Shown: positions 1,394 to 29,379 of the stretch, in pieces
How the letters are laid out: the number at the start of each line of letters is the position of its first letter
How positions within the stretch are numbered: the first letter of the stretch is position 1
NCBI GenBank assembly: GCA_902765305.1
Contig: CACWZI010000043.1
Coordinates: forward strand, 1-32,539
Direction of reading: 5' to 3'
Source: an uncultured Eubacteriales bacterium
GTDB taxonomy: Bacteria; Bacillota; Clostridia; Christensenellales; Aristaeellaceae
Length of the DNA: 32,539 nucleotides
Position numbers and translations under genes: made by a program
Notes under the pieces: generated by a model
Told to the model about the DNA's origin: nothing
The model's database searches: none
What the model saw: only the letters and a program-made list of their open reading frames with translations

Positions 1394-1631
1394 TCTTTCG
1401 GCGACGCGCAGCTAGTCCTTTAGGGTAAAAACGCAAGCGTTTTCACCGAAATCCACCTTCCGCCCAAGGGCATGGCTGCGCACACCCTGAACCGGCAGCT
1501 TCGCTGCCTGGGGAAGACTTTTGGGCTGGCGCTTCTCGCCGCCATATCGGTACTTGCCTGCAATTGAACAGTGATTGTACTATTAACCATTTTTAGTGGC
1601 TGATACCAAAGAGATATGGAGCGTGCGCAGA
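1394..1631. other. Non-coding remnant before the methyltransferase gene
   Basis: It contains a short hairpin AAAACGC AA GCGTTTT (1428-1443) and a GC-rich stretch with no convincing gene. The composition falls sharply to AT-rich just before the methyltransferase. I see no clear promoter with both boxes; TACTAT at about 1579-1584 could be a weak -10. Confidence 0.4.
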
Positions 1632-3191: not shown

Positions 3192-3203
3192 GGAGGCCGC
3201 ACC

Positions 3204-5801
3204 ATGATTCTGAAAAACTATCAAAAGCGTGTGCTGGACGATCTCAGCGGCTATCTCGCGGCGCTGGAAAAGACGAAAAACCTGAAAGAGGCGTTCCGGC
3301 AGCATTGGGCAGAGCGCGGCGTCGCCATCGGCTTTCACGGGATGCAGCCCTACAACAATCTGCTGCCGGGCGTGCCCCACGTCTGCCTGAAGGTGCCCAC
3401 CGGTGGCGGCAAGACGCTGCTGGGCTGCGCCTCGCTGCGGCGCATTTTCGATTCCATGGGCATCACCAAGACCAAGGCCGTGGTGTGGCTGGTGCCGTCC
3501 ACCTCCATACTGGATCAGACGGCCCGGGCGCTGTCCTCCGTGGAGCATCCCTACCGGCAATGGCTGGACTATGACTTCGGCAGCCGCGTGGAGATCTACA
3601 ATTCCGAACAGGCCAAGAACGGTCAGAACCTGACGCCTTCCACCGTGCGGGAGCAGCTCTCCGTGTTCGTAATGGGCTATGATTCCCTGCGCATCAAGAA
3701 AAAGGAGGGGCGAAAGGCCTATCAGGAAAACGGCGCGCTGGCGCAGTTCGTGCCCCACTTCACCCAGCCGGACGCGCTGCTGCCGGACGTGGACGAATCC
3801 GCGTTGATTCAGGTGCTGGGGCAGATGAACCCGGTGGTGGTCGTGGACGAGAGCCACAACGCCACCAGTGAGCTGAGCGTGGAGATGCTGAAGAACCTCA
3901 ACCCGTCGTTTGTGCTCGATCTGACCGCCACGCCGCGGCAGAACAGCAATATCATCTCCATCGTGGACGCGCGGGAGATGAAGCGGGAGAACATGGTCAA
4001 GCTGCCGGTGATCGTGTACAACCGGCACACCAAGCAGGACGTCCTGACCGACGCCATCCAGCTGCGCGGCAGCATCGAACGGCAGGCCAAGGCGGCGGAG
4101 GCCAACGGCGGGCAGTATATCCGGCCCATCGTGCTGTTCCAGGCCCAGCCCAAGGGCAAGGAATCCAGCGCCACCTTTGAAAAGCTGAAGGCGGCGCTGA
4201 TCGACATGGGCATTCCGAAGGAAGAAATCGCCATCAAGACTTCCGAGGTCAACGAGCTGAAGCACGTGGAGCTCATGTCCCGGACGTGCCCCATTCGATA
4301 TATCATCACTGTCAACGCGCTGAAGGAGGGCTGGGACTGCCCGTTCGCGTACATACTGGCGACGCTGGCCAACCGCACGTCCCAGGTGGACGTGGAGCAG
4401 ATCGTCGGGCGCATACTGCGCCTGCCCTACACGGAAAAGCACGGCCAGCCGCTGCTGAACATGTCCTACGTGCTGACCTGTTCCAATGATTTCAGCGCTA
4501 CCGTGCAGAACGTGATCAAGGGCCTGAACCGCGCCGGTTTCAGCGATAAGGAGTTCCGCGTTGGTTCCGAAGCGGAGCCTGAACCGGAGAAGCCGGAGGA
4601 GACGCCGGCCCAGCAGAGCATTGACGACATTCAGACCGGGCCGGAGGAGGAGTTCCTGGACTTCGATTTCGCCGCTGCCAGGCAGCGTTTGGAGGAATCC
4701 GCCGGGGATGTGATGTCGCCAGCGGTTCAGGACATGACCCAGACGGCAGAGCAGACCGGCGCGGCCTTTGAGGCCGAGATGAACGACCTGGACGATCTTC
4801 CGTTGATGGGAGGCGGTGAAATGCGCAGGCATATCCAGATGCAGGCGGAGTTTGCGGAGGAGGCGCAGGCGCTGCGATTGCCCATGTTCGTGGAGCAGAT
4901 CGAGGCCTCGCTGTTTTCAGAGGCGAAGAAGCGGCCAGTGGCGTCGCAGGCGCTGATCGACGGCTTCACGCTGGCGGACAAGGATACGCAGATCAACTTC
5001 AATATGAGCCAGGGCGACGTGGCGAAGGTGGATGTGGACAGCGACGAGCGTCCGAGGCGCATTGCGCTGAGCGAGCGCGAAGCACGGCAGTTCAAGACCT
5101 ATATGGAGAGCATTCCCTCCGAGAAGCGGAAAGACGCCTGCGTCAACATCATCCACGGCCAGCTGAACCGGCTGGACTGCGTGGGCTCCGGGGATTTGAA
5201 GCGGTATATTCAGCGCGTCGTTGATCAGATGAACGCGGACCAGCTCGCGGAGATGGAGGGCGCCATCCAGGCATACGCCCACAAGATCAAGGACAAGATC
5301 GAAGCGTTGATGGCGGAGTACAAGGAAAAGCGCTTTTACGACATGATCAACACCAAGGAGATCACCTGCGAACCGTATTTCAAATTCACGAAGGTGATTT
5401 CGCCCGTGGAGACCATGCCGCCGGTCAGCAAATCGCTGTATACAGACGAGGCTTCCGTGAACGGGCTGGAGGAGAAGACCATCCTCGCCGTTGCCGGTCT
5501 GGAAAACGTGAAGTGGTGGCACCGGAACATCGAGCGTCAGGGCTTTTACCTGAACGGTTTTATCAACCATTATCCCGATTTCATCGTGATGACGAAGAAA
5601 GGAAATATCGTCTTGATCGAAACCAAGGGCGACGACCGCGACAACAGCGACAGCCGCGCCAAGCTGGCCCTGGGCAAGAAGTGGGAAGCCCTCGCCGGCC
5701 CAAACCGCTATTCGTATTTTATGGTGTTCGATGAGAGGAATACAGGGCTGGACGGGGCCATGACCGTGGCGGAGCTTATAGGGATAATCAAGAAATTGTG
5801 A
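3204..5801 (+). CDS. res: Type III restriction enzyme, Res subunit (helicase-nuclease)
   Basis: This is the ATP-dependent translocating and cleaving subunit that works with Mod. At 865 residues it is of ordinary length for type III Res. Visible motifs are Walker A PTGGGKT at 65-71, the DEAD/DEAH-type Walker B VVVDESHN with D215-E216-S217-H218, a superfamily-2 motif VI QIVGRILRLP from residue 399, and a C-terminal PD-(D/E)xK nuclease with PD at 791-792 and ETKG at 806-809. A long acidic, Glu/Pro-rich linker at ~450-520 separates helicase and nuclease parts. The ribosome site AAGGAGG lies 8 bases before ATG 3204. No internal stop or frameshift is seen, so the system looks intact. Its GC-rich codon use matches the outer parts of mod, not mod's AT-rich centre. 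Confidence 0.94.
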   Translation: MILKNYQKRVLDDLSGYLAALEKTKNLKEAFRQHWAERGVAIGFHGMQPYNNLLPGVPHVCLKVPTGGGKTLLGCASLRRIFDSMGITKTKAVVWLVPSTSILDQTARALSSVEHPYRQWLDYDFGSRVEIYNSEQAKNGQNLTPSTVREQLSVFVMGYDSLRIKKKEGRKAYQENGALAQFVPHFTQPDALLPDVDESALIQVLGQMNPVVVVDESHNATSELSVEMLKNLNPSFVLDLTATPRQNSNIISIVDAREMKRENMVKLPVIVYNRHTKQDVLTDAIQLRGSIERQAKAAEANGGQYIRPIVLFQAQPKGKESSATFEKLKAALIDMGIPKEEIAIKTSEVNELKHVELMSRTCPIRYIITVNALKEGWDCPFAYILATLANRTSQVDVEQIVGRILRLPYTEKHGQPLLNMSYVLTCSNDFSATVQNVIKGLNRAGFSDKEFRVGSEAEPEPEKPEETPAQQSIDDIQTGPEEEFLDFDFAAARQRLEESAGDVMSPAVQDMTQTAEQTGAAFEAEMNDLDDLPLMGGGEMRRHIQMQAEFAEEAQALRLPMFVEQIEASLFSEAKKRPVASQALIDGFTLADKDTQINFNMSQGDVAKVDVDSDERPRRIALSEREARQFKTYMESIPSEKRKDACVNIIHGQLNRLDCVGSGDLKRYIQRVVDQMNADQLAEMEGAIQAYAHKIKDKIEALMAEYKEKRFYDMINTKEITCEPYFKFTKVISPVETMPPVSKSLYTDEASVNGLEEKTILAVAGLENVKWWHRNIERQGFYLNGFINHYPDFIVMTKKGNIVLIETKGDDRDNSDSRAKLALGKKWEALAGPNRYSYFMVFDERNTGLDGAMTVAELIGIIKKL

Positions 5802-15142: not shown

Positions 15143-16249
15143 TCAGTCCCACGGGAACCGGTACTTGCCCTCCAGGCCGCACTCCGCGCGCAGCTGGTTC
15201 AGCTCGGCCTGCACCGAGTCGTTGATGGGCACGCCGTCCCTGCGGGCCAGGCGGATCTCGTATTCCTTCTCGCCGGCGGTCCAGATGCGCTCGGCGCCGG
15301 GCATCCTGCGGCTGGCGCGGATCTCGCGGAGGATGTCGCCGGCCTTCTTGCGGCAGGCGGCCTCGCCCATGAAGTGGTCGGTGTCGATGGCGATGAAGAA
15401 GTGGCCCAGCCGGGGGGAACACTTTTCGCCGTTCTCGTCCACGCCGTTGAGCTGCTTGCCGTAGTAGCCGTCGGACAGCGCGGCGGACAGGAATTCCACG
15501 AACAGCGCGAAGCCGTAGCCCTTGTAGCCGCCCAGCAGCTCGCCGATGCCGCCCACGGTCACCAGCGCGGCGGAGTTCTCTCGGATGCGCTTCAGCGCCG
15601 CGCCGGCGTCCCCGGTGACAGGTTCGCCGTCCTCGCCGATCACGGTGCCCGGCACCACGTCGTGGCCGATGCGCGCGTAGTATTCAAACTTGCCGTTCTG
15701 GGTGATGGAGGTGGCGCAGTCGAAGTTGAAGTCGAAGGGCTCGTCGGTGGGCACGCCCAGCGTGAAGGGGTTGGTGCCGAACATGCCCTCGGTGCCCCAG
15801 GTGGGCGCCACGGAGGGGCGGGCGTTGGTGCCGGTCATGCCGATGCAGCCGGCCTTCGTGGCCATCGAGGTGTAATAGCCGGCGATGCCGTAGTGGCAGC
15901 TGTTGCGGGCTACCACCATGCCCATGCCGTAGGCCTTGGCCTTCTCAATGGCCATCGTCATGCACCTGTGGCCGATCACCTGGCCCATGCCGTCGTGGCC
16001 GTCCACCACCGCGGTGGTGGGGGTCTGCTTGATGATCTCGAAGTGCGTCACGGGCTTCTGTACGCCGGACTTGATGCGGTCCAGGTAGATGGGCTTGAAG
16101 CGATTGCAGCCGTGGGATTCGATGCCCCGGCGGTCGCTCTCCAGCAGCACGTCGCAGCATATGGCCGCGTCGGCCTCGGGAACGCCGTATTTGACGAACA
16201 CCTCGGTGACGAAGGCCGCTATGGTGGACCAATCGACGGTTTGAATCAC
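15143..16249 (-). CDS. Ldh-family NAD(P)-dependent 2-hydroxyacid dehydrogenase
   Basis: This cytoplasmic oxidoreductase belongs to the malate/L-lactate dehydrogenase 2 family (Ldh, ComC, AllD relatives), which oxidises 2-hydroxyacids such as malate, lactate, sulfolactate or ureidoglycolate with NAD(P). The 368-residue length is usual. Family marks include DRRGIESHGCNRF near the N-terminus, DGHDGMGQVIGHRCM, ARNSCHYGIAGYYT with the conserved catalytic-region His, TWGTEGMFGTNPF, and GGYKGYGFALFVEFLS in the C-terminal part. The start is GTG 16249 with AAAGGAGG before it. It is transcribed alone from the promoter at 16317. The substrate cannot be assigned. Confidence 0.9.
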   Translation of the reverse strand: MIQTVDWSTIAAFVTEVFVKYGVPEADAAICCDVLLESDRRGIESHGCNRFKPIYLDRIKSGVQKPVTHFEIIKQTPTTAVVDGHDGMGQVIGHRCMTMAIEKAKAYGMGMVVARNSCHYGIAGYYTSMATKAGCIGMTGTNARPSVAPTWGTEGMFGTNPFTLGVPTDEPFDFNFDCATSITQNGKFEYYARIGHDVVPGTVIGEDGEPVTGDAGAALKRIRENSAALVTVGGIGELLGGYKGYGFALFVEFLSAALSDGYYGKQLNGVDENGEKCSPRLGHFFIAIDTDHFMGEAACRKKAGDILREIRASRRMPGAERIWTAGEKEYEIRLARRDGVPINDSVQAELNQLRAECGLEGKYRFPWD

Positions 16250-16316
16250 GGTGATTGCCTCCTTTGTGGGTTGATCCCGCTTGGTCGGGGCGCGGGGACG
16301 CGCCGCCTTTCAATCC

Positions 16317-16345
16317 AGTATAGCATACAAGGTCCAATTGATCAA
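16317..16345 (-). promoter_or_regulatory. Promoter of the Ldh-family gene
   Basis: On the minus strand, TTGATC (16345-16340), a 17-base spacer and TATACT (16322-16317) precede GTG 16249 by about 65 bases. Confidence 0.75.
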
Positions 16346-16399
16346 TGCCATTTTCCCGGAACGGGAGCGACGCCATGAAAATATGAAAGCGTCACACAT

Positions 16400-16730
16400 C
16401 TGAAATAATTATGCAATAAATGAACAGAAAAGCAATGATTATCGCGGGGTTAACCCCGGCAATCCGTCCTGCAAAACCCGTAAATATGACGTGAAATTGA
16501 TGCTAAAACCGGCAATTGGCTATAAATTAGCCCTCAATGGGGTGAAAATGCGACTTAAAAAGACCGAAGTCTGTGGATAAAAAATATGCAGGAGGGGCCC
16601 GGATGTGGAAAACCCCCGGAAAACCCGATAAAATCGCGGTTTTGTCCCCCATTTCTGTGGATAACTGTGTGGAAAATGTGGATTTCTGCATAAGGCATGC
16701 AGTGAATATACACAGGTGGATATGCAGTTT
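16400..16730 (+). other. DnaA-box cluster, candidate replication origin
   Basis: This ~400-base gap contains perfect DnaA boxes TGTGGATAA at 16572-16580 and 16656-16664, near-boxes TGTGGAAAA at 16604-16612 and 16668-16676, TGTGGATTT at 16677-16685, and GGTGGATAT at 16715-16723, all in one orientation. Three of them lie almost end to end. To the left is AT-rich DNA (about 16398-16445) that could unwind, and a 12-bp palindrome GGGGTTAACCCC (16446-16457). This is the architecture of a bacterial origin, but dnaA and dnaN are not in the window. Confidence 0.6.
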
Positions 16731-16759
16731 ATGTCCGGTGGTGTAACAAATTCGATTGC

Positions 16760-18097
16760 CTACCCGATCATTATTCTTTCTTCCGGATATTTTGAGACGG
16801 GCCTGGCGCGACTCTGCCTGCGGGCAATGGCTATGGCCAGGGTCAGTGGGCCGACGCGTCCGAGGAACATCATCGGCAGCAGCACGGCGCGGCTGGCGGG
16901 ATGCAGGTTTGGCGTGCCGATGGCGGAGACGCCCACGGTGCCCATGGCGCTGGCGCACTCGAACAGTATGTCCGCCAGGGAGAAGCGCCCGCCCTCGATG
17001 ATCGAAAGGGAGAGCGTGCCGAGCGTCAGCGTCGTCAGAAACAGCGCCACCACGGCCAGTCCCCTTCGCACGGTGTCGGCGGGAATGCGGCGGCGGGCGG
17101 CGTTGACCTCGTTGTCGCCCTTTACGACGCTGAATATCAGGCGTATCACCAAAGCCACGGTGGTGGTTTTCATGCCGCCGCCAGTGGAGGCTGGGGACGC
17201 GCCGACCATCATCAGCAGGCTGCTGAACAGCTTGGAACCGTCCGTCAAGGACGACAGATCGTATGAATTGAAGCCCGCCGTGCGCATGGTGACGGACTGG
17301 AAGAAGGCGTTGAGCGTATCCAGCCTGCCGCGCTCCACCGCCATATAGAAGCCCGTGCCCGCCATCAGCAGCGCCAGCGTGAAGGTGAGTACGATGCGGG
17401 TGTGCAGCGACAGGTTCTTAAAACCCTGCCGGTTGCGCAGCACCTCCAGTATGACGGAGAAGCCCAGTCCGCCGAGGACGATCAGCGCCGCCACGGTCAA
17501 CAGCACCAGGGGATCGGCGGCAAAGCCGGTCAGGCTGGCGAAGTGCCCGAACAGGTCAAAGCCCGCGTTGCAGAAGGCGCTGACCGCGTGGAATACAGCG
17601 AGCCACGATCCGCGGCGAACGCCGTACATCGGGATGAAGCGGATGGCGAGCAGCGCCGCCCCCGCCGCTTCGATGCCCAGCGTCAACAGCAGGTAGAGCC
17701 GCGCCAGGCCGCCGAGGTTGGACAGGGATGTGGCGTTCATGGATTCCCGGATCAGCATTCGGTTCTTTATTGAGATACGCCGTCCCAGTATCACCATGAC
17801 CCTCGTGGCGAACACCATGAAGCCCAATCCGCCCACCTGGATCAGGACCAGCAGCACGGCCTGCCCAAACAGTGAGAAGGTCGTGCCCGTATCCACCGCC
17901 ACAAGACCCGTCACGCATACGGCGGAGGTCGCCGTAAACAGGCTGTCGAAAAAGCCGATGCTGTGTCCGTCCTTCGTCGACGCGGGCATCGCCAGCAGCA
18001 GCGCTCCCAACAGTATGACGCCCAGAAAGCCAAATACCAGCCATTCCTCCGGCCTGGGTTCACGCTTCAGCGCTTTGGGCCTGCGCGGCGCGTTCAC
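16760..18097 (-). CDS. ktrB: Potassium uptake channel subunit, TrkH/KtrB family
   Basis: This integral membrane protein conducts K+ into the cell and is gated by an RCK subunit such as KtrA. The 445-residue product is of KtrB rather than long TrkH size. Four pore-loop segments with the filter glycine are visible: TSAVCVTGLVAVDTG (~57-71), SAFCNAGFDLFG, TMRTAGFNSYD and SAMGTVGVSAIG, alternating with hydrophobic pairs. The start is GTG 18097, after AGGAGG and overlapping the kdpE stop by four bases (GTGA); the longer frame upstream lies antisense-like inside kdpE. It is third in the kdpD-kdpE-ktrB operon, while its likely partner ktrA is divergent. DnaA-box DNA follows. Confidence 0.93.
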   Translation of the reverse strand: MNAPRRPKALKREPRPEEWLVFGFLGVILLGALLLAMPASTKDGHSIGFFDSLFTATSAVCVTGLVAVDTGTTFSLFGQAVLLVLIQVGGLGFMVFATRVMVILGRRISIKNRMLIRESMNATSLSNLGGLARLYLLLTLGIEAAGAALLAIRFIPMYGVRRGSWLAVFHAVSAFCNAGFDLFGHFASLTGFAADPLVLLTVAALIVLGGLGFSVILEVLRNRQGFKNLSLHTRIVLTFTLALLMAGTGFYMAVERGRLDTLNAFFQSVTMRTAGFNSYDLSSLTDGSKLFSSLLMMVGASPASTGGGMKTTTVALVIRLIFSVVKGDNEVNAARRRIPADTVRRGLAVVALFLTTLTLGTLSLSIIEGGRFSLADILFECASAMGTVGVSAIGTPNLHPASRAVLLPMMFLGRVGPLTLAIAIARRQSRARPVSKYPEERIMIG

Positions 18098-18813
18098 GGC
18101 GCGTCCTCCTGCCGGCCATCCTGCTTGAGCATGCGATAGCCAATGCCGATGTGGGTCTGGATATAGGGCTGTTCGCCGCCCGTTTGCAGCTTCTTGCGCA
18201 GCGTCGCCATAAACACCCGAAGGGAGCCGACGTCCGAGGCGGTATAGCTGCCCCAGATCTCCTTCAGGATGTAGTTGTGGGTCAGCACCTTGCCGGTATT
18301 GCGCGCCAGCAGGCACAGCAGCCGGTACTCGATGGGCGTCAGGTGGATCTCCTGATCCGCGATGTACGCGCAGCCGGCGGCATAGTCGATGCGCAGGATG
18401 CCGTTTTCGTACACGGCGCTCTCGCTGCCCGCCGAGGCCTCCGCGTTTACCCGGCGAAGCGCCACCCGAAGCCGCGCCAGCAGCTCGTCCACGGAGAAGG
18501 GCTTGGTCAGGTAGTCGTCCGCGCCGGCGTCCAGCGCCTCCACCTTGTCGGCGTCCTCGCTGCGGGCGGAGATGACGATGACGGGCATGCCTGTCCAGGT
18601 TCGCACCTTGCGGATGATGTCCACGCCCTCCATGTCCGGCAGCCCCAGGTCCAGCAGCATCACGGCGGGCTGCTGGGTCGAGGCTTCGATCAGCGCCTCC
18701 GCGCCGTTTCGGGCCAGATGGTAGCGGTAGCCCTGGGTGTCCAGCGCCACCGCCATCAGGCTGCGCACCGCCGCGTCGTCCTCCACCACCAGTATCAACG
18801 GTTTATTGTTCAT
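18094..18813 (-). CDS. kdpE: Response regulator, KdpE-like (OmpR family)
   Basis: This cytoplasmic transcription regulator is phosphorylated by the adjacent KdpD-like kinase. The 239-residue product has a receiver domain at ~5-118 with the acidic pocket at VVEDD (E11/D12), phospho-acceptor D55 in LLDLGLPD, and K104 in YLTKPFS. A winged-helix DNA-binding domain at ~135-230 includes EIHLTPIEYRLLCLLARN and a final hairpin near YIQTHIGIGYRM. ATG 18813 lies inside the kdpD end (11-base overlap) with GGAGG upstream. It overlaps ktrB by four bases. Here the likely target is the Ktr system rather than kdpFABC, which is absent. Confidence 0.94.
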   Translation of the reverse strand: MNNKPLILVVEDDAAVRSLMAVALDTQGYRYHLARNGAEALIEASTQQPAVMLLDLGLPDMEGVDIIRKVRTWTGMPVIVISARSEDADKVEALDAGADDYLTKPFSVDELLARLRVALRRVNAEASAGSESAVYENGILRIDYAAGCAYIADQEIHLTPIEYRLLCLLARNTGKVLTHNYILKEIWGSYTASDVGSLRVFMATLRKKLQTGGEQPYIQTHIGIGYRMLKQDGRQEDAP

Positions 18814-20752
18814 AGCCTTCGACCTCCACGATTGGAAGGGTAAACCAGAATTTTGCGCCGTGGGGCCTGACGTTTTCCACGCCGATTTCGCCCCCGTGGG
18901 CCTGCACGATGCTCTTGCAAAGCGCCAGCCCCAGCCCGATGCCCCGGCGGCTGTCCGGGGAGCGCTTCACGCCGGTGTAAAACATGTCGAACACCCGGCT
19001 CTCGTCGCCGGGCGGCACGCCCTGCCCGTCGTCCGCCACCCAGATCAGCGCCATGCCATCCTTCCGCCGGATGCCGACGGTGATCCGCGCGCCTTCGGGC
19101 GTATACTTCACCGCGTTGTTCAGAAGGTTCACCAGCACCTGCACGATCAGCCCCGCGTCCATGCGGGCCAGCAGCATCTCCTCCGGCAGGTCCGCTGCGA
19201 TGTGCCGCCGGGCCGCGTCACGGTCGATGTGCCGCAGGGCTTCCTCCACCGTATCCGCCACCAGCTCGGTCTGCAGGTTCAGCTTCATGGCGCCGTTTTC
19301 GGTGCGGGTGATGGTGAGCAGGTTCTCCACCAGGCCGTTCAGCCAGATGGCGTCGTCATAGATGGAGGTGTAAAGCCGCTTGAGGCTTTCATCGCCCAGC
19401 TGCCCCTGGTTCTCCACCAGGATGGCCGCGTTGCCGGAGATGCTGGTCAGGGGCGTGCGCAGGTCGTGGGAGATGGAGCGCAGCAGGTTGGCCCGCAGCG
19501 ATTCCTGGCGGGCGTTTTCCTCGATGCGCTGCTTCTCTCGGGTCATGTGATCCTTCTCCACCGCCAGGGCGCACTCGTCCAGTATGGAAATCATCAGGTT
19601 CTTGCGAAACTCGTCGATGGGCGGGGCGTTGTCGGCGCGTATGCCGATGACCGCCCACACCGTCCGTTCGCTGCGCACGGCCATGTACAGGCACCTGGCC
19701 TCCGGGAACACGCGGGTCGTGCGTCCGGCGTGCTTGCCGTTCTGGCGCACCCACTGCGCGGCCTTGCGCTCCGCCTCCAGGTCGATTCCCCCGAATCCGC
19801 CGTCCTGCTCGATGGCGCAGAGCGTGGGCGCGTCGAGGTCCGAATCATAGCACAGCACGCTGTGCTCCAGCAACCGGCACAGCTGCTGCTGGACGACCTC
19901 CAGGATCGCCCGCTTTTCGTCCGCCTTTTGCAACAGCTGGCTGGTGGTCAGCAATACCTCCGTCTGGTAGGCCTTGTTTGCCGTCTGGATGGACTGGGCC
20001 TTGATGCGGCTGGTCAGCGAGCTGGACAGGAGCGCCGCCGTGAACATCACCGCGAAGGTGGCGAAGTAATCCGGGCTGGAGCGCAGCGAATAGTAGGGCT
20101 CGGTGAAGAAGAAGTTGAACACCAGCACCGAGAAGAACGAGGACAGCAGGCTGTAGATCGGGCCCGTGGTGACGAGGGCCACCGCCAGCACGCCGAGAAT
20201 GTAGATCAGCACCACGTTGGTGATGGCCAGCCCGATGGCCGTGAACAGGAAGCCCACGCCGGTGCAGATCGCCAGGATCAGCGCCGCCCTGGCCAGGTCG
20301 ACGGTGGAGAAGCGCCCCTTTCGGAAGAACCGGCGAAGCTGAAGCGGTTCGGCGTCGACGGTCAGCTGGTTCGGCACGATGATGATCTCCACGTTCGGGG
20401 CCAGCTCGTTGAGCCGCGACATCAGCGTCTCCTTCGGCGCGAACAGGCGCTTGTGCTCCGGGCTCTTGCCCAACACGATCTTTGTGATCCCGCTGACCCG
20501 CGCATACTCGGCAATGGCCGTGGCGGGGTCGTCGCCGTAGATCGTGGTCAGCAGCGCGCCGTGGCGCTCCGCAAGGGACAGGTGGTCGTGCACCGCCCGG
20601 GCACGGGCTTCGTCGTAAAGCTCCGTGTCCTCCACGTAGAGCGCGATCAGCTCCGCGTCCATCGCGCCTGCGAGCGCCGCCGCGCGGCGAATCACGTCCG
20701 CGTTGGTGGGCGAAGCGGAAACGCACACCAATATCCGCTCGTGTTCCGACAT
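18803..20752 (-). CDS. kdpD: Sensor histidine kinase, KdpD-like, lacking the N-terminal KdpD domain
   Basis: This membrane kinase senses potassium or osmotic state in related systems. The 649 residues are shorter than full KdpD (~890): the N-terminal Walker-A KdpD domain (~200 residues) is absent, and the protein begins with the USP-like domain (RILVCVSASPTNADVI, residues ~6-127). Next come four close membrane segments at ~152-245 (DUF4118), a GAF-like region at ~270-400, the HisKA helix with phospho-acceptor H429 in SISHDLRTPL, and the ATPase with NLLNNAVKYTPEG, VADDGQGVPP and GIGLGLALCKSIV. ATG 20752 follows GGGGGAGG. Truncated KdpD forms are known in other bacteria. Start position and lack of upstream homologous frame suggest this is natural, not a broken gene. 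Confidence 0.93.
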   Translation of the reverse strand: MSEHERILVCVSASPTNADVIRRAAALAGAMDAELIALYVEDTELYDEARARAVHDHLSLAERHGALLTTIYGDDPATAIAEYARVSGITKIVLGKSPEHKRLFAPKETLMSRLNELAPNVEIIIVPNQLTVDAEPLQLRRFFRKGRFSTVDLARAALILAICTGVGFLFTAIGLAITNVVLIYILGVLAVALVTTGPIYSLLSSFFSVLVFNFFFTEPYYSLRSSPDYFATFAVMFTAALLSSSLTSRIKAQSIQTANKAYQTEVLLTTSQLLQKADEKRAILEVVQQQLCRLLEHSVLCYDSDLDAPTLCAIEQDGGFGGIDLEAERKAAQWVRQNGKHAGRTTRVFPEARCLYMAVRSERTVWAVIGIRADNAPPIDEFRKNLMISILDECALAVEKDHMTREKQRIEENARQESLRANLLRSISHDLRTPLTSISGNAAILVENQGQLGDESLKRLYTSIYDDAIWLNGLVENLLTITRTENGAMKLNLQTELVADTVEEALRHIDRDAARRHIAADLPEEMLLARMDAGLIVQVLVNLLNNAVKYTPEGARITVGIRRKDGMALIWVADDGQGVPPGDESRVFDMFYTGVKRSPDSRRGIGLGLALCKSIVQAHGGEIGVENVRPHGAKFWFTLPIVEVEGYEQ

Positions 20753-20785
20753 GCGCCTCCCCCTCAGTTTACCGTTATTTCACGT

Positions 20786-20791
20786 ATTATA
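20786..20791 (-). promoter_or_regulatory. -10 box of the kdpD-kdpE-ktrB operon
   Basis: On the minus strand TATAAT (20791-20786) lies 34 bases before the kdpD start. No good -35 box is found 17 bases upstream (CTTCCC), which suits an activator-dependent promoter. Confidence 0.55.
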
Positions 20792-20828
20792 TCACATATT
20801 CCATAAAAGGGAAGATAAAAAAACAGGC

Positions 20829-20899
20829 GACGCATTAAGGCGGCATAAAGACAAAGCGCGCTTTATGCCGTCTTAATGCGTCATATACAGCCTTAATGG
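20829..20899. promoter_or_regulatory. Repeated half-sites between kdpD and ktrA (candidate KdpE operator)
   Basis: A 22-bp inverted repeat with one mismatch spans 20829-20850 and 20861-20882. Within each arm there are two direct half-sites 11 bases apart: GCATTAAG 20832-20839 and GCATAAAG 20843-20850, then CTTTATGC 20861-20868 and CTTAATGC 20872-20879. A fifth (CTTAATGG, 20892-20899) sits next to the ktrA promoter. An 11-base spacing of direct repeats is the usual layout for OmpR-family regulators. Confidence 0.6.
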
Positions 20900-20919
20900 C
20901 GTGTTCATGGCCCGGATGA

Positions 20920-20925
20920 TACAAT
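20920..20925 (+). promoter_or_regulatory. -10 box of ktrA
   Basis: TACAAT (20920-20925) lies 31 bases before ATG 20956, with no recognisable -35 box at 17 bases. The last half-site (20892-20899) covers where an activator would touch polymerase. Confidence 0.5.
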
Positions 20926-20955
20926 AACCTCCATAAAAACTACGGGAGGCATTCC

Positions 20956-21603
20956 ATGAAGAACATACTGTTGATCGGCCTGGGCCGGTTCGGACGCCAC
21001 ATGGCCCAAAAGCTTCACGACCTGAACCACCAGGTGCTCGCCATCGACAAGGACGAACGCCGGGTGCAGGACGCCATGGCCTACGTCACGAACGCCGAGA
21101 TCGGCGACGCCACCGACCCCACGCTGATCGACGCGCTCGGGGTGGAGGAGTTCGACCTGTGCGTCGTCACCATGGGCCACGATCTGCAGGCTTCGCTGGA
21201 AATCACTTCGCTTTTGAAAAAGCGGGGCGCGCCCTTCGTGCTGGCGCGCGTCGCCCGCGACGCACACGCCCAGTTTCTGCTTGCCTGTGGCGCGGACGAG
21301 GTGATCTATCCCGAAAAGCAGACGGCCATCTGGGCCGCCGTGCGCTACAGCGGCAATCACATCTTCGATTTCATTCGCCTCTCGCCGGAATACGCGATCT
21401 ACGAAACCGGGATTCCCGACAGCTGGATCGGGCACACCGTGGTCGACCTGGCAGTTCGTCAGAAATACCGCCTGAACATACTCGCCATCCGCAGAAATGG
21501 CCAGGTGATGCCGATGCCGGGCCCTTCCCATCAGTTTTGCCGGGATGAGCGCATCATCCTGTTGGGCGAAGAGAAGGACGTGCAGAAGTTCCTGCGGTTC
21601 TGA
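20956..21603 (+). CDS. ktrA: Potassium uptake regulator subunit, TrkA/KtrA family (RCK domain)
   Basis: This cytoplasmic RCK ring subunit gates the KtrB channel in response to ATP/ADP or NAD(H) and often c-di-AMP. The 215-residue product has one RCK-N domain with GLGRFG at 8-13 and the ribose-binding acid D31 in LAIDKDE, followed by IGDATDP. The RCK-C domain at ~140-215 (GHTVVDLAVRQKY to IILLGEEKDVQKFL) would bind the regulatory ligand. A single RCK-N/C pair matches KtrA, not the doubled TrkA. The start follows ACGGGAGG. It is divergent from the ktrB operon, sharing the 200-base control region. Confidence 0.95.
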   Translation: MKNILLIGLGRFGRHMAQKLHDLNHQVLAIDKDERRVQDAMAYVTNAEIGDATDPTLIDALGVEEFDLCVVTMGHDLQASLEITSLLKKRGAPFVLARVARDAHAQFLLACGADEVIYPEKQTAIWAAVRYSGNHIFDFIRLSPEYAIYETGIPDSWIGHTVVDLAVRQKYRLNILAIRRNGQVMPMPGPSHQFCRDERIILLGEEKDVQKFLRF

Positions 21604-21811: not shown

Positions 21812-21840
21812 TCGGGAGATTTATTGCCTCCCGAGTTTTT
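21812..21840 (+). terminator. Intrinsic terminator of the ktrA transcript
   Basis: TCGGGAG (21812-21818) pairs with CTCCCGA (21828-21834) around a 9-base loop and is followed by GTTTTT. It closes the AT-rich gap after the small membrane protein gene. Confidence 0.75.
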
Positions 21841-21847
21841 GGGGTGC

Positions 21848-21853
21848 TATAAT
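21848..21853 (+). promoter_or_regulatory. -10 box upstream of the secreted SH3-like gene
   Basis: TATAAT (21848-21853) in an AT-rich context lies 40 bases before ATG 21894. The -35 region would overlap the terminator stem and is not consensus. A second AT-rich -10-like sequence (21855-21862) is close by. Confidence 0.4.
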
Positions 21854-21893
21854 TATATTATAACAATCGCATACGGCAGGGAGGAAACCACAA

Positions 21894-22355
21894 ATGAAGA
21901 AGATCATTGTTACTGTACTGGCTGTTTCACTGCTTCTGGCCATGTTCTGCGCCCAGGCGCTGGCCAGCCATGGCGACATCACCGTCAGGGCGGCGAAGCT
22001 CTACGCGGATTCCGCAATGACGGAATATGTGGGCACGATTCCGGCCTACACCGCGCTGGTCGTGCGCGCCAACGAATCCTATACCGACGTCTATTACAAC
22101 GGCAAAGTGTACTACACGAAGGGCTCCAACCTGCTGAACAAGTCCGGGCTGGGCGATTACCTCGCCACTTTGGGCAAGGGCACGAAGGTCTATCAGCGCG
22201 CCGACAGCAGCGCCAACAGCTATACGCTGAAGAAGAGCGGCCCGGTGCAGATCTGCGCGGTCAAGGGCGATTGGGCGCTGGTTCAGACCCTGGGCGAGCG
22301 CGGGCTGTACGCCTTCGTCAAAATTGATAAGCTGAAGAACATCACCAGGTTCTGA
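21894..22355 (+). CDS. Secreted SH3-like protein
   Basis: This 153-residue protein has a clear signal peptide (MKKIIVTVLAVSLLLAMFCA, cleavage probably after ALA at ~24). The mature part is two short SH3-like beta units. The first runs from ITVRAAKLYADSAMTEYVG to YNGKVYYTKGSNLL (residues ~29-76), and the second from YQRADSSANSYTLKKSGPV to GERGLYAFVKIDKL. Such modules usually bind cell wall or act as spacers, but no enzyme is attached. GGGAGG stands before ATG 21894. It resembles the N-terminal modules of the products at 24187 and 26077, so the genes are probably old paralogues. A hairpin at 22366-22416 follows. Confidence 0.75.
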   Translation: MKKIIVTVLAVSLLLAMFCAQALASHGDITVRAAKLYADSAMTEYVGTIPAYTALVVRANESYTDVYYNGKVYYTKGSNLLNKSGLGDYLATLGKGTKVYQRADSSANSYTLKKSGPVQICAVKGDWALVQTLGERGLYAFVKIDKLKNITRF

Positions 22356-24149: not shown

Positions 24150-24186
24150 CGGCTTGTTGGGAACGACCGCACAGGAGGAGAGAGAC

Positions 24187-25956
24187 ATGAAGAAGACCGT
24201 GTTGATGCTCGTCGCCGTCGCGCTGCTGGCGGCGCTGGGCGCGTGTGCTTTGGCTGCGGGCTGGACCGAGTACGTCAACAGGGACGGCGCGAAGGTCTAT
24301 GCCGATTACGACACCGATTCCAAGGTCATCGCCACCCTCAACAAGGGCGACAAGGTGACCGTGCTGGACGTGGTGGACATGTGGGGCAAGTGGAACGAGG
24401 TCTCCATCAAGGTGAAGGGCAAGAAGAAGACCGGGTTCATGCTCAGCAAGTACCTGGACGAGAATCCCCCCTGCACCCACAAGTGGGGCAAGTGGAAGGT
24501 CGTCCGCGAGGCCACCTGCCAGAAGACGGGCCTGCGCCAGCGCAAGTGCACCAAGTGCGGCGCGGTGGAGGAGGGTACGCTGCCCAAGACCGAGCATATC
24601 TACGGCAGGTGGAAGGTGACCAGGGAGCCCACCTGCACCAAGGAGGGACAGCGGACCCGCACCTGTACCGTGTGCGGCCACAAGCAGACCCAGACCATCG
24701 AAAAGGAGCCCCACGAGTGGGGCAAGTGGAACGTCACGAAGGAGCCCACCTGCACGGCCAAGGGCCGCCGCACCCGCAAGTGCAAGGTCTGCGGCCGCAA
24801 GGAGGAGCAGGTGCTGGACAAGCTGCCCCACGACTTTGGTTCGTGGAAGGTGGAGAAGAAAGCCACCTGCACCGCCAAGGGCCTGCGCAGCCGCACCTGC
24901 CGGGACTGCAAATACAAAGAGGAGCAGTCCGTGGCCATGCTGCCCCACGACTACCGCTGGGAGATCGTCACAGAGGCCACCGATCATTCCGCCGGCACCC
25001 GTCGGCAGGTGTGCAAGGTGTGCGGCCATGCCGAGCGCACGGTGTCCTACGATCCCGAAGGCACGCTGCGCCGCGGCGCGAAGGGCAGCGCCGTGCGCGA
25101 GGTCCAGCAGCTGCTGGCGGATCAGGGCTACCTGACCTCCAAGGGCGTGGACGGCATCTTCGGCGGCGGCATGGAGCGGGCCGTCATGCAGTTCCAGATG
25201 GATCAGAACCTCAATCCCGACGGCGTGGCCTGGCCCCAGACCATCCAGCGCCTGAACCACGACTTCGGGCCCTGGACCGTCACCGTCCCGCTGAAGCGCG
25301 ACGCCGACGGCGCGCGTGAGCGCGTGTGCAGCGACTGCGGCTATAAGCAGCTTGAGACCATCGACGCCGGCGCCATTCATACCCGGAGCCGGGGCGAGAA
25401 CGTGCGCACCGTCCAGAAGCTGCTGGGCGACATGGGCTACAACCCCGGCGCCTACGACGGCATCTACGGCGCGAAGCTGGACATCGCCTACGCGGCCTTC
25501 GCCGCCGACCACGGCGTGGATTTCCAGCCCGGCACCGTGTGGCCTGCCCAGGTGGACGCGCTGGTCAACGGCTGGATGGCCGAACAGGGCGCGGAGCGCT
25601 GGCAGGGCGCTTGCGGCGCGGGCGCGCCGGTGAACCTGGTGCTGACCGTCACCCCCGCCAAGGGCGCGGATGCCGGCGACGGCCTGGTGACCTACGATTG
25701 GCACCTGGTAAACCTGGGCAGCCAGTCCTGCACATTTGAGGCGCTGCGGCTCAGCTACGGCGACGAACCGGATTTCCGCCGGGATACCCTGACCGTGGTC
25801 GTCGACGGCGTGCAGCTGAAGCCCGACGGCAAGAGCAGCGCTTCCGGCAGCTTCACCGTGGCTTCCGATTGGGGCGCGGGCAGCCTGAACTTCTGCGCCC
25901 TGGCCGAGGTGGAGCGGAGCGGCGACCTGTACGACAGCAACGTGGTGAAATACTGA
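24187..25956 (+). CDS. Secreted protein with SH3, 39-residue cysteine repeats and peptidoglycan-binding domains
   Basis: This 589-residue protein starts with a signal peptide (MKKTVLMLVAVALLAALGA, cleavage ~23). The domains in order are: an SH3-like module at ~25-90 (WTEYVNRDGAKVYADYDTD); 39-residue repeats starting at H98, H137, H176, H215 and H254; two peptidoglycan-binding type 1 domains at ~296-355 (GSAVREVQQLLADQGYL) and ~400-462 (NVRTVQKLLGDMGYNPG); and an Ig-like end. Each of the first four repeats has one Cys after WKV-x-ATC and a CxxC about ten residues on; the fifth, and a sixth at H358 between the two binding domains, keep only the CxxC. It likely sits on the wall and may bind metal or form disulfides. 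No enzyme part is seen. Confidence 0.82.
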   Translation: MKKTVLMLVAVALLAALGACALAAGWTEYVNRDGAKVYADYDTDSKVIATLNKGDKVTVLDVVDMWGKWNEVSIKVKGKKKTGFMLSKYLDENPPCTHKWGKWKVVREATCQKTGLRQRKCTKCGAVEEGTLPKTEHIYGRWKVTREPTCTKEGQRTRTCTVCGHKQTQTIEKEPHEWGKWNVTKEPTCTAKGRRTRKCKVCGRKEEQVLDKLPHDFGSWKVEKKATCTAKGLRSRTCRDCKYKEEQSVAMLPHDYRWEIVTEATDHSAGTRRQVCKVCGHAERTVSYDPEGTLRRGAKGSAVREVQQLLADQGYLTSKGVDGIFGGGMERAVMQFQMDQNLNPDGVAWPQTIQRLNHDFGPWTVTVPLKRDADGARERVCSDCGYKQLETIDAGAIHTRSRGENVRTVQKLLGDMGYNPGAYDGIYGAKLDIAYAAFAADHGVDFQPGTVWPAQVDALVNGWMAEQGAERWQGACGAGAPVNLVLTVTPAKGADAGDGLVTYDWHLVNLGSQSCTFEALRLSYGDEPDFRRDTLTVVVDGVQLKPDGKSSASGSFTVASDWGAGSLNFCALAEVERSGDLYDSNVVKY

Positions 25957-25996
25957 ACCGGGCGGCAAGTTCATCCTTATACGTGGGCGAAAGGGC

Positions 25997-26020
25997 AGCG
26001 GCGGCCCTGAGGCCGCCGCT
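25997..26020 (+). terminator. GC-rich hairpin between surface genes
   Basis: AGCGGCGGCC (25997-26006) and GGCCGCCGCT (26011-26020) pair perfectly around CTGA in the 117-base gap after the cysteine-repeat gene. There is no T run, so it may slow rather than stop transcription. Confidence 0.45.
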
Positions 26021-26076
26021 ACAGCCCCGCGCCGAGGATCGAACAGACGACCGGCAAACCCTTTCGGAGGTAAATG

Positions 26077-27312
26077 ATGATGATAAAGAGAATCGTGACG
26101 GTCATGCTGGCTGTCGCGCTGCTGGCGGCCCTGGCGCTGCCGGCGGTGGCGGACGCCTTTACGCTGTATGTCACCAAGGACGGCGTGAAGGTGTACGCGA
26201 AGAAGGACACCGGCGCCAAGGTGTACAGGCGGCTGTCCAAGGGTGAGAAGCTGCTGATCGAGAAGAAGAGCGGCAATTGGTATGCCATACTGGTGCAGGA
26301 CCCCTCCGGCGACGGCCAGACCCTGGGCTGGGTCCAGGCCAAGTACCTGAGCACCACCAAGCCCTCCAAGGAGAAGAAAAAGAAGGCCACAAAGGCCCCG
26401 AGGGCCACGGTGTCGCCCCAGAAGGAGATCAATCGACTGCTGGACACCATGCGGGACGTGACGCCCTACGACGCCCAGGTGGTCACGAAGACCGAACGGG
26501 GCACCGTGGCGCTGCGCCGCCAGCCCTCCACGGCCGGCCAGCAGATACTGAGCCTGATGAACGGTTCGCCGCTGAGGGTGCTGGCCGAGGGCGAGGGCTG
26601 GTTCCAGGTTTCCGACCCGGCCAGCGGCCATACCGGCTACATGTCCAGCAAATACATCGTCAGGTCCACCGAGGTGGCCGACGACGGGGATGAGGACGGG
26701 TATGCGGAGGACCTGGACGCGACGGCGGAGGCCGACGAAGCGGTGCGCGACGGGGGCCGCACGGTGGCGCCCATCGCCGTTGAGGTGGACGTGAACCACC
26801 TGCCCGACGGGGAATATCCCGTGGCCTTTGACCGGGGCGACGTGGCCCGCCTGGCCTCCGGCACCTACATGAACGCCGTGCACGTCTGCGCTGTGGAGGT
26901 GTACGAAGCCGACGACATCGAGGGCCTGGCCGAAGGGGACAGCATCTTGGTCGCGGGTTCGGCCATTCCCGTTTCGACGGTGATCTCGGACGGCAGCCTG
27001 GTGCAGATCAACGGCGGCACAGGCGCGGAGGACGGCTGTGACTTCATCCGGACGGCGGACGGCAACTGGCGCGTGAATGGCTTCGACGACCTGCCCACCT
27101 ATACCGAGCTGGGCGTGACCACGCTGGTGGTGGACGAATCGGCGGTGTTCACCGACGCATCCGACATCGACAGCGACCCCGTCACCGCGCCTTACGACGG
27201 CATCGTCGAGGCCATGCAGGGCGCGGCCTTCGACGGCTTCTACGCCGACAACACCACCGTGACGGTCCGTTCGGGCCGGGTGACGCGCATCGACCGGGTG
27301 TTTGTGCCGTAA
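26077..27312 (+). CDS. Secreted protein with two SH3-like domains
   Basis: This ~411-residue protein has a signal peptide (cleavage after ADA at ~26), an SH3-like module at ~28-92 (FTLYVTKDGVKVYAKKDTG to LGWVQAKYLS), a Lys-rich linker, a second SH3-like module at ~135-200 (GTVALRRQPSTAGQQIL to TGYMSSKYIV), and a long acidic region. A C-terminal half of ~200 residues (VEVDVNHLPDGEYPVAFDRG, DSILVAGSAIPVSTV, TLVVDESAVFTDAS) resembles no family I can name. Three ATGs follow each other; 26074 is only 3 bases after GGAGG, so 26077 or 26080 is the likelier start. The N-terminus is closely similar to that of the product at 24187. Confidence 0.78.
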   Translation: MMIKRIVTVMLAVALLAALALPAVADAFTLYVTKDGVKVYAKKDTGAKVYRRLSKGEKLLIEKKSGNWYAILVQDPSGDGQTLGWVQAKYLSTTKPSKEKKKKATKAPRATVSPQKEINRLLDTMRDVTPYDAQVVTKTERGTVALRRQPSTAGQQILSLMNGSPLRVLAEGEGWFQVSDPASGHTGYMSSKYIVRSTEVADDGDEDGYAEDLDATAEADEAVRDGGRTVAPIAVEVDVNHLPDGEYPVAFDRGDVARLASGTYMNAVHVCAVEVYEADDIEGLAEGDSILVAGSAIPVSTVISDGSLVQINGGTGAEDGCDFIRTADGNWRVNGFDDLPTYTELGVTTLVVDESAVFTDASDIDSDPVTAPYDGIVEAMQGAAFDGFYADNTTVTVRSGRVTRIDRVFVP

Positions 27313-27350
27313 ACGCGTCAAGGAAATACATTCTAATTGGCATTATGGTC

Positions 27351-27380
27351 TTGACGCCCAGGCCTGTTACGGGTTAAAAT
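27351..27380 (+). promoter_or_regulatory. Promoter of the coiled-coil protein gene
   Basis: TTGACG (27351-27356), 18 bases and TAAAAT (27375-27380) stand about 35 bases before ATG 27416. Confidence 0.65.
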
Positions 27381-27415
27381 ATACTTAATAGCATATTTGC
27401 AAAGGAGGACAAACC

Positions 27416-28144
27416 ATGTTCGGAAGCAAGAAGATACAGGAGCTGGAAGACAAGGTTCGCGAGCTTACGGAGAGCCTGAGCCGGCAGCAGTCCGAGAACG
27501 CCAGCCTGACCCAGCAGCTGGACACCGCCAGCAGCCGCATCCGCGAGATGGAGGCCCAGCTGAAGGACTTCGACCTGGAACGGGCCAGGGAGGAGGCCAA
27601 GGCTTCCCGGGCCGAGTTCGAGGGCCTGAAGGACCTCTACACCCGCAAGAACCGCGAGTTCGACGAGTACAAGGAGGAAGAAGAGCAGCGGTTTGCCCGC
27701 GACCAGGCGCTGCAGCGGCACAACCTCGAAAACGAGATCCGCGACAACCGCCAGGCCAACCAGGATTACGTCACCAGCACGGTCAAGACCTTTGGCGAGA
27801 GCTACAACTATTATCTTGGCCAGATCAAGGTGCTGCTGGACGCCCTGGGCAACGTGGCCACCCGCACCGGCGAGACGCTGTTCGCCGGCGGCAACGCCGA
27901 CCTGCGCGCCAGCTTTGGCCATCAGATGCGCGACCTGCTGAAATCCGGCGTGGACGCCTTCAATGACGAGGAGGAGGAGCTGGTGGTCGAGGCCGAGGAC
28001 GTTCCCGAGGTGGCCGAGGAGGCCGCGGAGCCTGCTCCCGAGGCCGCCGAAGAAGTCGGGGAAGCCGCTGGGGATGCCGCCGAAGAGCCCCTTGAGCCCC
28101 TGGAGGAAACCAGGGTCCTGGACGAAGAGGCCGACGTGATGTAA
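27416..28144 (+). CDS. Coiled-coil protein with acidic tail, function unknown
   Basis: I do not recognise the family. The 242-residue protein has no signal peptide and is mostly helical. A heptad-rich coiled coil occupies ~5-120 (KIQELEDKVRELTESLSRQQ onward, many Leu/Glu/Arg). A less charged, conserved-looking block lies at ~115-180 (NYYLGQIKVLLDALGNVATR, then ASFGHQMRDLLKSGVD). The last ~60 residues are almost only Glu, Ala, Pro and Val. It could be a cytoplasmic scaffold or septum-associated protein because it sits inside a cell-surface cluster, but that is position only. The start is supported by AAAGGAGG 8-10 bases before ATG. It has its own promoter. Confidence 0.75.
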   Translation: MFGSKKIQELEDKVRELTESLSRQQSENASLTQQLDTASSRIREMEAQLKDFDLERAREEAKASRAEFEGLKDLYTRKNREFDEYKEEEEQRFARDQALQRHNLENEIRDNRQANQDYVTSTVKTFGESYNYYLGQIKVLLDALGNVATRTGETLFAGGNADLRASFGHQMRDLLKSGVDAFNDEEEELVVEAEDVPEVAEEAAEPAPEAAEEVGEAAGDAAEEPLEPLEETRVLDEEADVM

Positions 28145-28182
28145 ACGACCTGAGATACCAGTAAACGCTTTGGAGAACACAC

Positions 28183-29379
28183 ATGAGACATCATTTACGC
28201 TTGCCGGCGGCGGCGCTGGGCCTTGCGGTCCTGCTGCTGCTGCCGGCAGGGTCCGCCGGCGAAGTGGCGGATGATAAAGGGGCGGCTGGCAGCGAAGCGC
28301 TCGTCATCGAGGCGGATACGGACGCCGTATTCGATCCCTCGGACCTGGGCGGGCTCGGCGCGCTGGACCTGGGCGACCTCGTGAATGACCTGGAGGTGCC
28401 GACACCGGCGCCCACGAAGACGCCCAAGCCCACGAAGACCCCGAAGCCCACGAAGACGCCGGCGCCCCCGTGGCTCACCTCCCGCCACTACCCGAAGGAC
28501 AAGATCAACTTTGAAGACGAGATCTGGGACATACTGACCGGCAAGTGGGGCCTCAAGGACTTCCAGGCCGCGGGCCTGATGAGCAGCATACAGGCCGAGA
28601 GCAGCTTCTGTCCCTACAACGTGCAGGGCATGGGCGGCTCGGACGACCGGGGCGCGTACCTCTACGACGCCGGGGACAGCGTGGGCTTCGGCCTGTGCCA
28701 GTGGACGTCCTCGGGCCGAAAGGCCAACCTCCAGGGCTTTGCCGCCTCCCGTGGCAGCGCGGACCTGGTGTGGGATTTCGACACCCAGATGGCCTTTATG
28801 CGTGAGGAGCTGGACATGAAGGTCCTCCGGGCCACGAAGACGCTCTACGAGGCCGCGGAGTGGACCGTGATGCGCTACGAGCGCCCCAACCAGCGCTATG
28901 CCAATTCCTGGCCCGGCACCCGCTACGAGAAGGGCCGCGCGATCTACAAGCGCCACACCGGCAAGGCCTACGGGGAGCCGGCGCTGGAATTCTCGGTGAA
29001 GTACGGCAAAAACGACGCCCTGGCAGCCGGCGCGCTGGCGCTGGACGCCGAGGCCATGGGCAGCCTGACGGTCAAAAGCAACTACTACTGGCGGCTGACC
29101 CAGGTGGACGCCGACGAAATCGACGAAGCGTCGTGGCTGGCGGTGAAGGGCCCGTCCTTCTACTATCCCACCTTGACGGAGGACTGCGTCTGCGGCTACG
29201 CCGGCGAGAAGGCGCTGGCGCTGTCCGTCGCCCGGCCCCTGGAGCCGGGGAAGGACTACCGCGCGACGCTGCGCTTTGAAATCTACCGGGGCAAGCGCGA
29301 GGTCCGGACGGTGAAGATTACGGTGACCGGGCCGGAGGCGGAGGCGACGGAGGAACAGAATACGGAGGAGGCGCATTGA
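28183..29379 (+). CDS. Secreted muramidase with phage-tail-lysozyme domain
   Basis: This is a probable peptidoglycan hydrolase. The 398 residues open with a signal peptide (LGLAVLLLLPAGSAG), then an acidic region, and a linker of repeated PTKTPK units at ~77-93. The phage_lysozyme2 domain at ~107-255 contains GLMSSIQAESSFCPYNVQG with likely catalytic E139, then VGFGLCQWTSSGRKANL and SWPGTRYEKGRAIYKR. A C-terminal beta module of ~140 residues follows. No phage genes are nearby, so it belongs to the cell's own wall-remodelling set. The start has GGAG before it. A hairpin overlapping its stop codon terminates the gene. Confidence 0.85.
   Translation: MRHHLRLPAAALGLAVLLLLPAGSAGEVADDKGAAGSEALVIEADTDAVFDPSDLGGLGALDLGDLVNDLEVPTPAPTKTPKPTKTPKPTKTPAPPWLTSRHYPKDKINFEDEIWDILTGKWGLKDFQAAGLMSSIQAESSFCPYNVQGMGGSDDRGAYLYDAGDSVGFGLCQWTSSGRKANLQGFAASRGSADLVWDFDTQMAFMREELDMKVLRATKTLYEAAEWTVMRYERPNQRYANSWPGTRYEKGRAIYKRHTGKAYGEPALEFSVKYGKNDALAAGALALDAEAMGSLTVKSNYYWRLTQVDADEIDEASWLAVKGPSFYYPTLTEDCVCGYAGEKALALSVARPLEPGKDYRATLRFEIYRGKREVRTVKITVTGPEAEATEEQNTEEAH

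Follow-up and report, generated by a model that had tools for sequence, protein, structure and literature searches.

A conserved DnaA-box cluster outside the replication origin, probably a relocated relative of the tsaD-side cluster of Bacillota

The non-coding gap near 16.5 kb of the window, which is the whole of contig C43 (32,539 bases), one of 177 in a 3.88-Mb draft genome, holds a conserved block of DNA with five co-oriented predicted DnaA boxes, the last three of which lie head-to-tail at a 12- and 9-bp pitch. As judged from the sequences, the block occurs as one strong copy per genome, does not sit at the GC-skew minimum in relatives, and appears to have been kept while both flanking genes were replaced. 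We consider it probable that the element is a non-origin DnaA-box cluster, which descends from an old Bacillota cluster located 3´ of tsaD, became parted from tsaD in this genus, and would hold DnaA and tune initiation. The gene also appears below under its older name, gcp.

Five 9-mers with a TGTGGA core fall within 114 bp (16572–16685), all on the + strand, and two of them are perfect. Box 1 (TGTGGATAA, 16572–16580) is followed 32 bp further on by box 2 (TGTGGAAAA, 16604–16612). Box 3 (TGTGGATAA, 16656–16664) opens the head-to-tail triple, which continues with box 4 (TGTGGAAAA, 16668–16676) 12 bp past box 3 and box 5 (TGTGGATTT, 16677–16685) 9 bp past box 4. In alignment A1 (21 sequences, 74% mean column identity), TGTGGA is invariant in boxes 1 and 4, GTGGATAAC in box 3 and TGTGGATT in box 5, while in box 2 two G and the final AA are invariant and the other core positions vary. 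Every one of the 21 rows has the triple TGTGGATAACNNTGTGGANNNTGTGGATT with spacings of 12 and 9 bp, except for the first base in one row. The earlier note had counted six 9-mers; the five core-bearing ones, including the nearly adjacent trio at 16656–16685, form a real cluster, whereas the sixth, probably GGTGGATAT at 16716, lacks the core and is weak.

The clustering is well above chance. Four exact TTWTCCACA words occur in the 511-bp intergenic stretch versus 0.034 expected, and none of 5000 dinucleotide shuffles of this stretch gives four (the shuffle maximum is 2). Over the whole window the excess is smaller, with eight boxes at ≤1 mismatch versus 3.16 expected and 1 of 100 shuffles giving eight. 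Exact TTWTCCACA pairs on the same strand and ≤30 bp apart occur at only two loci in the 3.88-Mb draft, upstream of dnaA and in the window cluster. The surroundings are AT-rich, with a GC content of 43% in 16313–16780 versus 62% over the window. An AT-rich stretch and a 12-bp palindrome had been noted beside the boxes, and both are present; the palindrome (GGGGTTAACCCC at 16446) nevertheless falls outside the conserved element, and its sequence is not kept in the aligned relatives.

The conserved element spans 16481–16736 on the + strand (approximately 255 bp), as matched by R1, a sequence-only model built from 21 copies. A 521-base query gave matches in 27 of the 28 genus genomes, with the own genome counted, and R1 found one strong place in 27 of 28, with an additional, much weaker match in four genomes. 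The sole exception is G153 (96% complete), in which neither the query nor the model gave a match. R1 also matches 213 of 300 family genomes at E ≤ 0.01, many of them weakly, and these weak matches may rest on the DnaA boxes alone. Conservation in A1 extends to invariant columns outside the boxes: TGAC and GTCACA-like words upstream, AGACC..AGTCT over box 1, and TATACA words downstream. The first of the upstream words is a conserved TGAC at 16487–16490 (+ strand; columns 8–11 invariant). A hyphenated palindrome (AGACCGAAGTCT, 16561–16572), which overlaps the start of box 1, is largely conserved, and downstream of the triple lies the motif TGAATATACA (16703–16712, + strand; often TGTATATACA in relatives), in which the TG, TAT and CA columns are invariant and which may be a site for a second protein. 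The extra upstream and downstream motifs probably bind a partner or shape the complex, which is a guess.

A long conserved intergenic block with changing neighbours could also be a structured non-coding RNA gene. Rfam, however, returned no match at the gathering score and only two sub-threshold matches in the stretch, neither of which lies on the boxes, and no consensus RNA fold is supported (−2.5 kcal/mol, with 1 of 15 pairs changed on both sides). On these two results an RNA gene was rejected, and we regard it as next to impossible.

In the window, the left neighbour of the element is an Ldh2-type malate/L-lactate dehydrogenase gene (15143–16249, − strand; Pfam PF02615, E = 3e-112), which starts approximately 320 bp from the first box. 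The right neighbour is a TrkH/KtrB-type cation transporter gene (16760–18316, − strand; PF02386), the 3´ end of which faces the element. It belongs to a potassium-uptake block (16760–21603) of TrkH, a response regulator, a DUF4118 (KdpD-like) sensor kinase with a Usp domain, and TrkA, which separates the element from u21824 (21824–22327, + strand), an uncharacterized 167-aa gene without a Pfam hit that follows the element in many members of the genus. Elsewhere in the window, a DNA methylase gene (PF01555) followed by a gene for a ResIII-type protein (PF04851) at 1596–5801 looks like a type III restriction-modification pair. At 24154–29379, a series of genes encodes proteins with SH3, peptidoglycan-binding and phage-tail-lysozyme domains, and these diverge between sister genomes (about 63–84% identity in L058, L059 and L061).

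The earlier note had asked whether the cluster stays between ktrB and ldh in related genomes. Among the 21 genus loci compared, Ldh2 lies on the left of the element in 5, and TrkH is found in the window only. The note had also described yidC-jag as near the cluster. Of the 26 genus genomes in which yidC was matched, four (G000, G155, G163 and G170) have yidC on the same contig as the element and 22 have it on another; because the contigs are draft, a split of this kind shows no adjacency rather than distance. The closeness of yidC-jag to the element therefore looks local.

The flanks change within the genus in agreement with the dnaA tree. In 4 of the 21 genus loci (G151, G152, G154 and G158), rluD-holin is on the left and rhaB-mrnC on the right, and the three of these present in the tree are early branches (support 88/83 and 94/90). 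Another twelve carry deoC on the right, and in 11 of them rluD-holin was found on the other side. The five loci with Ldh2 on the left form one clade (100/99), and u21824 is on the right in three of them. The order of the neighbour swaps is a reading of this tree, not proof, because some forks are open.

Outside the genus, the element lies between tsaD (with prfB further left) and either cwlD or rhaB-mrnC-rlmB-sigH-tuf. Among 19 such family loci, tsaD is within 3.5 kb on the left in 8 and no such tsaD is found in 11; the nearest probe on the right is cwlD, rhaB or mrnC in 13, and G025 has both tsaD on the left and a right neighbour of this kind. Five of the 19 have no probe gene within 3.5 kb on either side, where the flanks were checked with a fixed set of probe proteins, beyond which a neighbour would go unseen. 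A scan of 82 loci found tsaD on the left in 12, cwlD on the right in 11, dnaA in 5 and mnmE in 3, with many loci lacking any probe, and dnaA or dnaN was matched in 6 of a set of 30 loci.

The same flanks bear on the possibility that the element is a DnaA-controlled promoter, at which bound DnaA would switch an adjacent gene in step with the replication state. Many genomes have a co-directional gene match (deoC, rhaB, cwlD or mrnC) that begins about 100–400 bp from the element centre, and PMC4447404 places some B. subtilis DnaA sites upstream of genes, for example sda/yqeG. However, the downstream gene varies between clades while the element stays, and in the window the right neighbour presents its 3´ end and the left gene starts as far away as stated above. 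The same paper locates the B. subtilis cluster between two 3´ ends. We regard promoter control as unlikely.

The tsaD gene of the own genome (L322) is on contig C123 and has no box within 700 bp downstream, so that the cluster does not occupy the position immediately 3´ of tsaD here. Because this tsaD lies elsewhere without boxes, while tsaD-side copies occur in the family and the phylum, we describe the window cluster as a relocated relative rather than as the cluster at tsaD. A relocated relative of the gcp/tsaD cluster is the simplest account of what the window holds.

Across the phylum, the link with tsaD was examined in 149 evenly drawn genomes, in all of which tsaD was placed. The exact triple TGTGGANAANNNTGTGGANNNTGTGGA occurs at 24 sites in 22 of these genomes, and its reversed control at none in the listed genomes. 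Eighteen of the 24 triples share the strand of the tsaD match and lie 93–491 bp beyond its 3´ end. The other six, the window included, do not fall within 500 bp of tsaD, with one at 1.6 kb (G466) and five on other contigs. The single exact triple of G469 is on a contig other than that of tsaD. On inspection of the 24 loci, the boxes are what recurs. A genome of the same class, G389, holds TGTGGAAAAC..TGTGGAAG.TGTGGA triples at three separate places (L299, L320 and L321), none on the tsaD contig and one just past an mnmE match. Two MAGs, from Oscillospiraceae and Intestinimonas (L121 and L139), have a triple box approximately 150 bp from the start of an mnmE match, which recalls the B. subtilis trmE/jag DnaA site (PMC4447404).

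The DNA around tsaD was examined at 70 of the 149 loci, which comprise the 30 best matches and 40 loci chosen by hand from further down the list, with exact-triple genomes excluded from the 40. At least two 9-mer boxes are present within 700 bp downstream of tsaD in 34 loci, upstream in none and inside the gene in two; at least three TGTGGA cores are present downstream in 35, upstream in none and inside the gene in four. The upstream control is mostly coding DNA, a weakness of which the shuffles of the downstream DNA are free: 200 dinucleotide shuffles give 0.005 loci on average and one at most. Of the 116 downstream boxes, 108 are co-oriented with tsaD, and the window element, with co-oriented boxes and a triple at the 12/9-bp pitch, has the pattern of the tsaD-linked copies in the sample. 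The remaining 36 loci have fewer than two 9-mer boxes downstream; because about half of the 70 loci lack the cluster, it is widespread but far from universal. In Alicyclobacillus sp. ALC3, tsaD lies 510 bp to the left of the cluster, and a phylum search centred on the Alicyclobacillus genome gave 32 of 199, which are largely the same genomes again and not independent.

The earlier note had read the window cluster as a candidate replication origin parted from dnaA by rearrangement, and a second origin would be a related reading. Clustered co-oriented DnaA boxes do adjoin AT-rich DNA in the window. Origin genes also do get separated in the family, because dnaA and dnaN are approximately 46 kb apart in the relative G025, and one of the 21 genus loci (L072) shows an origin-like skew, negative on the left and positive on the right, over 10 kb on each side. 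The whole 78-kb contig of L072, however, is skew-positive in all four segments. The window has a net positive GC skew on either side of the element (+0.047 and +0.030), although a few 1-kb bins are negative, and it lacks a minimum at 16.5 kb. In the sister species G146, where the element is at 321 kb of a 400-kb contig, 36 of 40 10-kb bins are negative, including all bins near the element. When skew is oriented by the element, 17 of the 21 genus loci, some with short flanks, are positive to the left as well as to the right.

The 3.97-Mb contig of G025, of the same family, allows a longer view. Skew, sampled along the contig, changes sign from negative to positive near 62 kb, beside dnaN (63.6–64.7 kb), and changes back between 2.04 and 2.22 Mb, while the element ortholog lies at 2.834 Mb, mid-arm, with one sign around it. 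The flip is approximately 1.2 Mb from the ortholog if the contig ends adjoin. This ortholog is a weak sequence match (25 bits) and was identified mainly by synteny (tsaD on the left and cwlD on the right). On the same contig (C3), dnaA (L258) lies near 16 kb and dnaN (L279) near 64 kb, and it is dnaN rather than dnaA that the skew flip accompanies. At approximately 191.3 kb, C3 carries another dense cluster of DnaA boxes (L239), in both orientations and away from dnaA, dnaN and the element.

In the own genome, dnaA is absent from the window, as the earlier note had said; it is on contig C11, where dnaN and mnmE come next and the skew changes locally. The dnaA-dnaN spacer contains five TGTGGA cores, a run (TAGTAGAAGTAG) of four DnaA-trio units, and a 25-bp stretch with 24 A/T. 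Trio units in spacers and elements were counted by the DnaA-trio rule: a run of four is found in none of the 21 elements and a run of three in one, while the dnaA-dnaN spacers have a run of at least three in 15 of 21 and of four in 2 of 21. In 15 of 21 genus genomes the cumulative skew of the dnaA locus reaches its minimum inside dnaN, and in 6 it does so outside dnaN; dnaA is on a contig other than that of the element in all 26 genus genomes in which both were found. On the 102-kb dnaA contig of G108, the skew is weak, and the dnaA-dnaN minimum is only a local one because at a larger scale the lowest point lies closer to 57 kb than to dnaA, which is at 26 kb.

At the window element we thus found no skew minimum, no trio run with an AT-rich unwinding stretch, and neither dnaA nor dnaN as a neighbour. 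Skew in relatives and the position of dnaA-dnaN place the element outside the replication origin, with the own draft profiled at the window and the dnaA region. The origin reading was rejected on skew, on the dnaA-dnaN position and on the absent trio run, and we hold it to be very improbable. What the earlier note had named as counting against an origin, a skew minimum and a better cluster beside dnaA elsewhere, is largely what we see, because the own dnaA-dnaN cluster lies elsewhere and the flip in G025 is at dnaN. The evidence favours the other option that the note had raised, a DnaA-titrating or DnaA-regulated site. The element shares TGTGGATAA boxes in non-coding DNA with the oriC of Bacillota but differs from it in having no trio run of four, no skew switch and no dnaA/dnaN neighbour.

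Okumura et al. reportedly removed, in 2012, six DnaA-box clusters of B. subtilis that lie outside oriC. According to PMC5295017 and PMC13220808, removal of the six leads to early initiation; these reviews treat the six as one group and differ on its weight. One of the strong B. subtilis DnaA sites, with many boxes, is placed by PMC4447404 in a non-coding gap 3´ of gcp, away from oriC. The likeness to this gcp/ydiF site is the same position relative to tsaD in many genomes here, Alicyclobacillus sp. ALC3 included; the genus element differs in lying off tsaD and in its extra conserved motifs, and DnaA binding is shown in B. subtilis only. The link is drawn from position and box content as given in that paper. 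Like the group of six, the window element is a DnaA-box cluster outside oriC, but the removal effect is known for all six together, while the function in this clade is a prediction. Unlike B. subtilis with its group of six, the window draft genome has, outside dnaA, no second locus with close exact TTWTCCACA pairs.

In E. coli, datA, DARS1 and DARS2 are non-coding DnaA-box loci off oriC that tune initiation, as summarized in PMC5295017. PMC13220808 adds that datA needs IHF and promotes hydrolysis, that the DARS loci promote exchange, and that B. subtilis is without IHF and these loci. The window element might be a Gram-positive analogue, in which the complex, together with a partner protein at the TGAC/GTCACA and TATACA motifs, would actively hydrolyse or exchange the nucleotide bound to DnaA. 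The approximately 255 bp of conservation is more than the boxes would need, non-box columns are invariant and the box pitch is fixed; moreover, the B. subtilis counterpart discriminates ATP- from ADP-DnaA, according to PMC4447404. Against this, a regulator of DnaA-ATP conversion had not been identified in B. subtilis according to PMC5295017, and it is the boxes that recur at the phylum triple loci. The five window boxes all point one way, which differs from the E. coli loci, and no homology to them is claimed. A nucleotide-converting analogue seems to us improbable.

Holding of DnaA is the likeliest function, because the neighbours change while the element stays, with binding predicted from the boxes. 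DnaA would bind the array cooperatively and be held there, with the ATP form preferred as at the gcp/ydiF site of B. subtilis. Since the site lies away from oriC, its replication would alter how many holding places there are and, with them, the pool of free DnaA. The altered pool would then delay or pace initiation at the dnaA-dnaN origin. By binding a partner or by shaping the complex, the TGAC/GTCACA and TATACA motifs could contribute, which again is a guess. One finding counts against titration: according to PMC13220808, a ten-fold overproduction of DnaA caused no over-initiation in wild-type B. subtilis.

A full-text literature search, which covered titles, abstract openings and a few passages, found no report that the tsaD-side boxes are conserved, and this may be partly known. 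DnaA boxes mark the gcp/tsaD position in about half of the 70 phylum tsaD loci; they keep a single polarity, and the pitch of the triple is often fixed. Conservation at the tsaD side, together with a genus copy that was kept through several neighbour changes, points to one cluster under its own selection. More tentatively, the tsaD-linked cluster could be an ancient, Bacillota-wide replication-control element of this kind, a Gram-positive counterpart in role of datA/DARS, which in this clade may have become a self-standing module with second-protein sites that acts anywhere on the chromosome arm, always in one orientation relative to the fork. The long-standing question whether chromosomal sites that hold DnaA set the pace of initiation in Gram-positive bacteria can now be tested directly on one element of approximately 250 bp.
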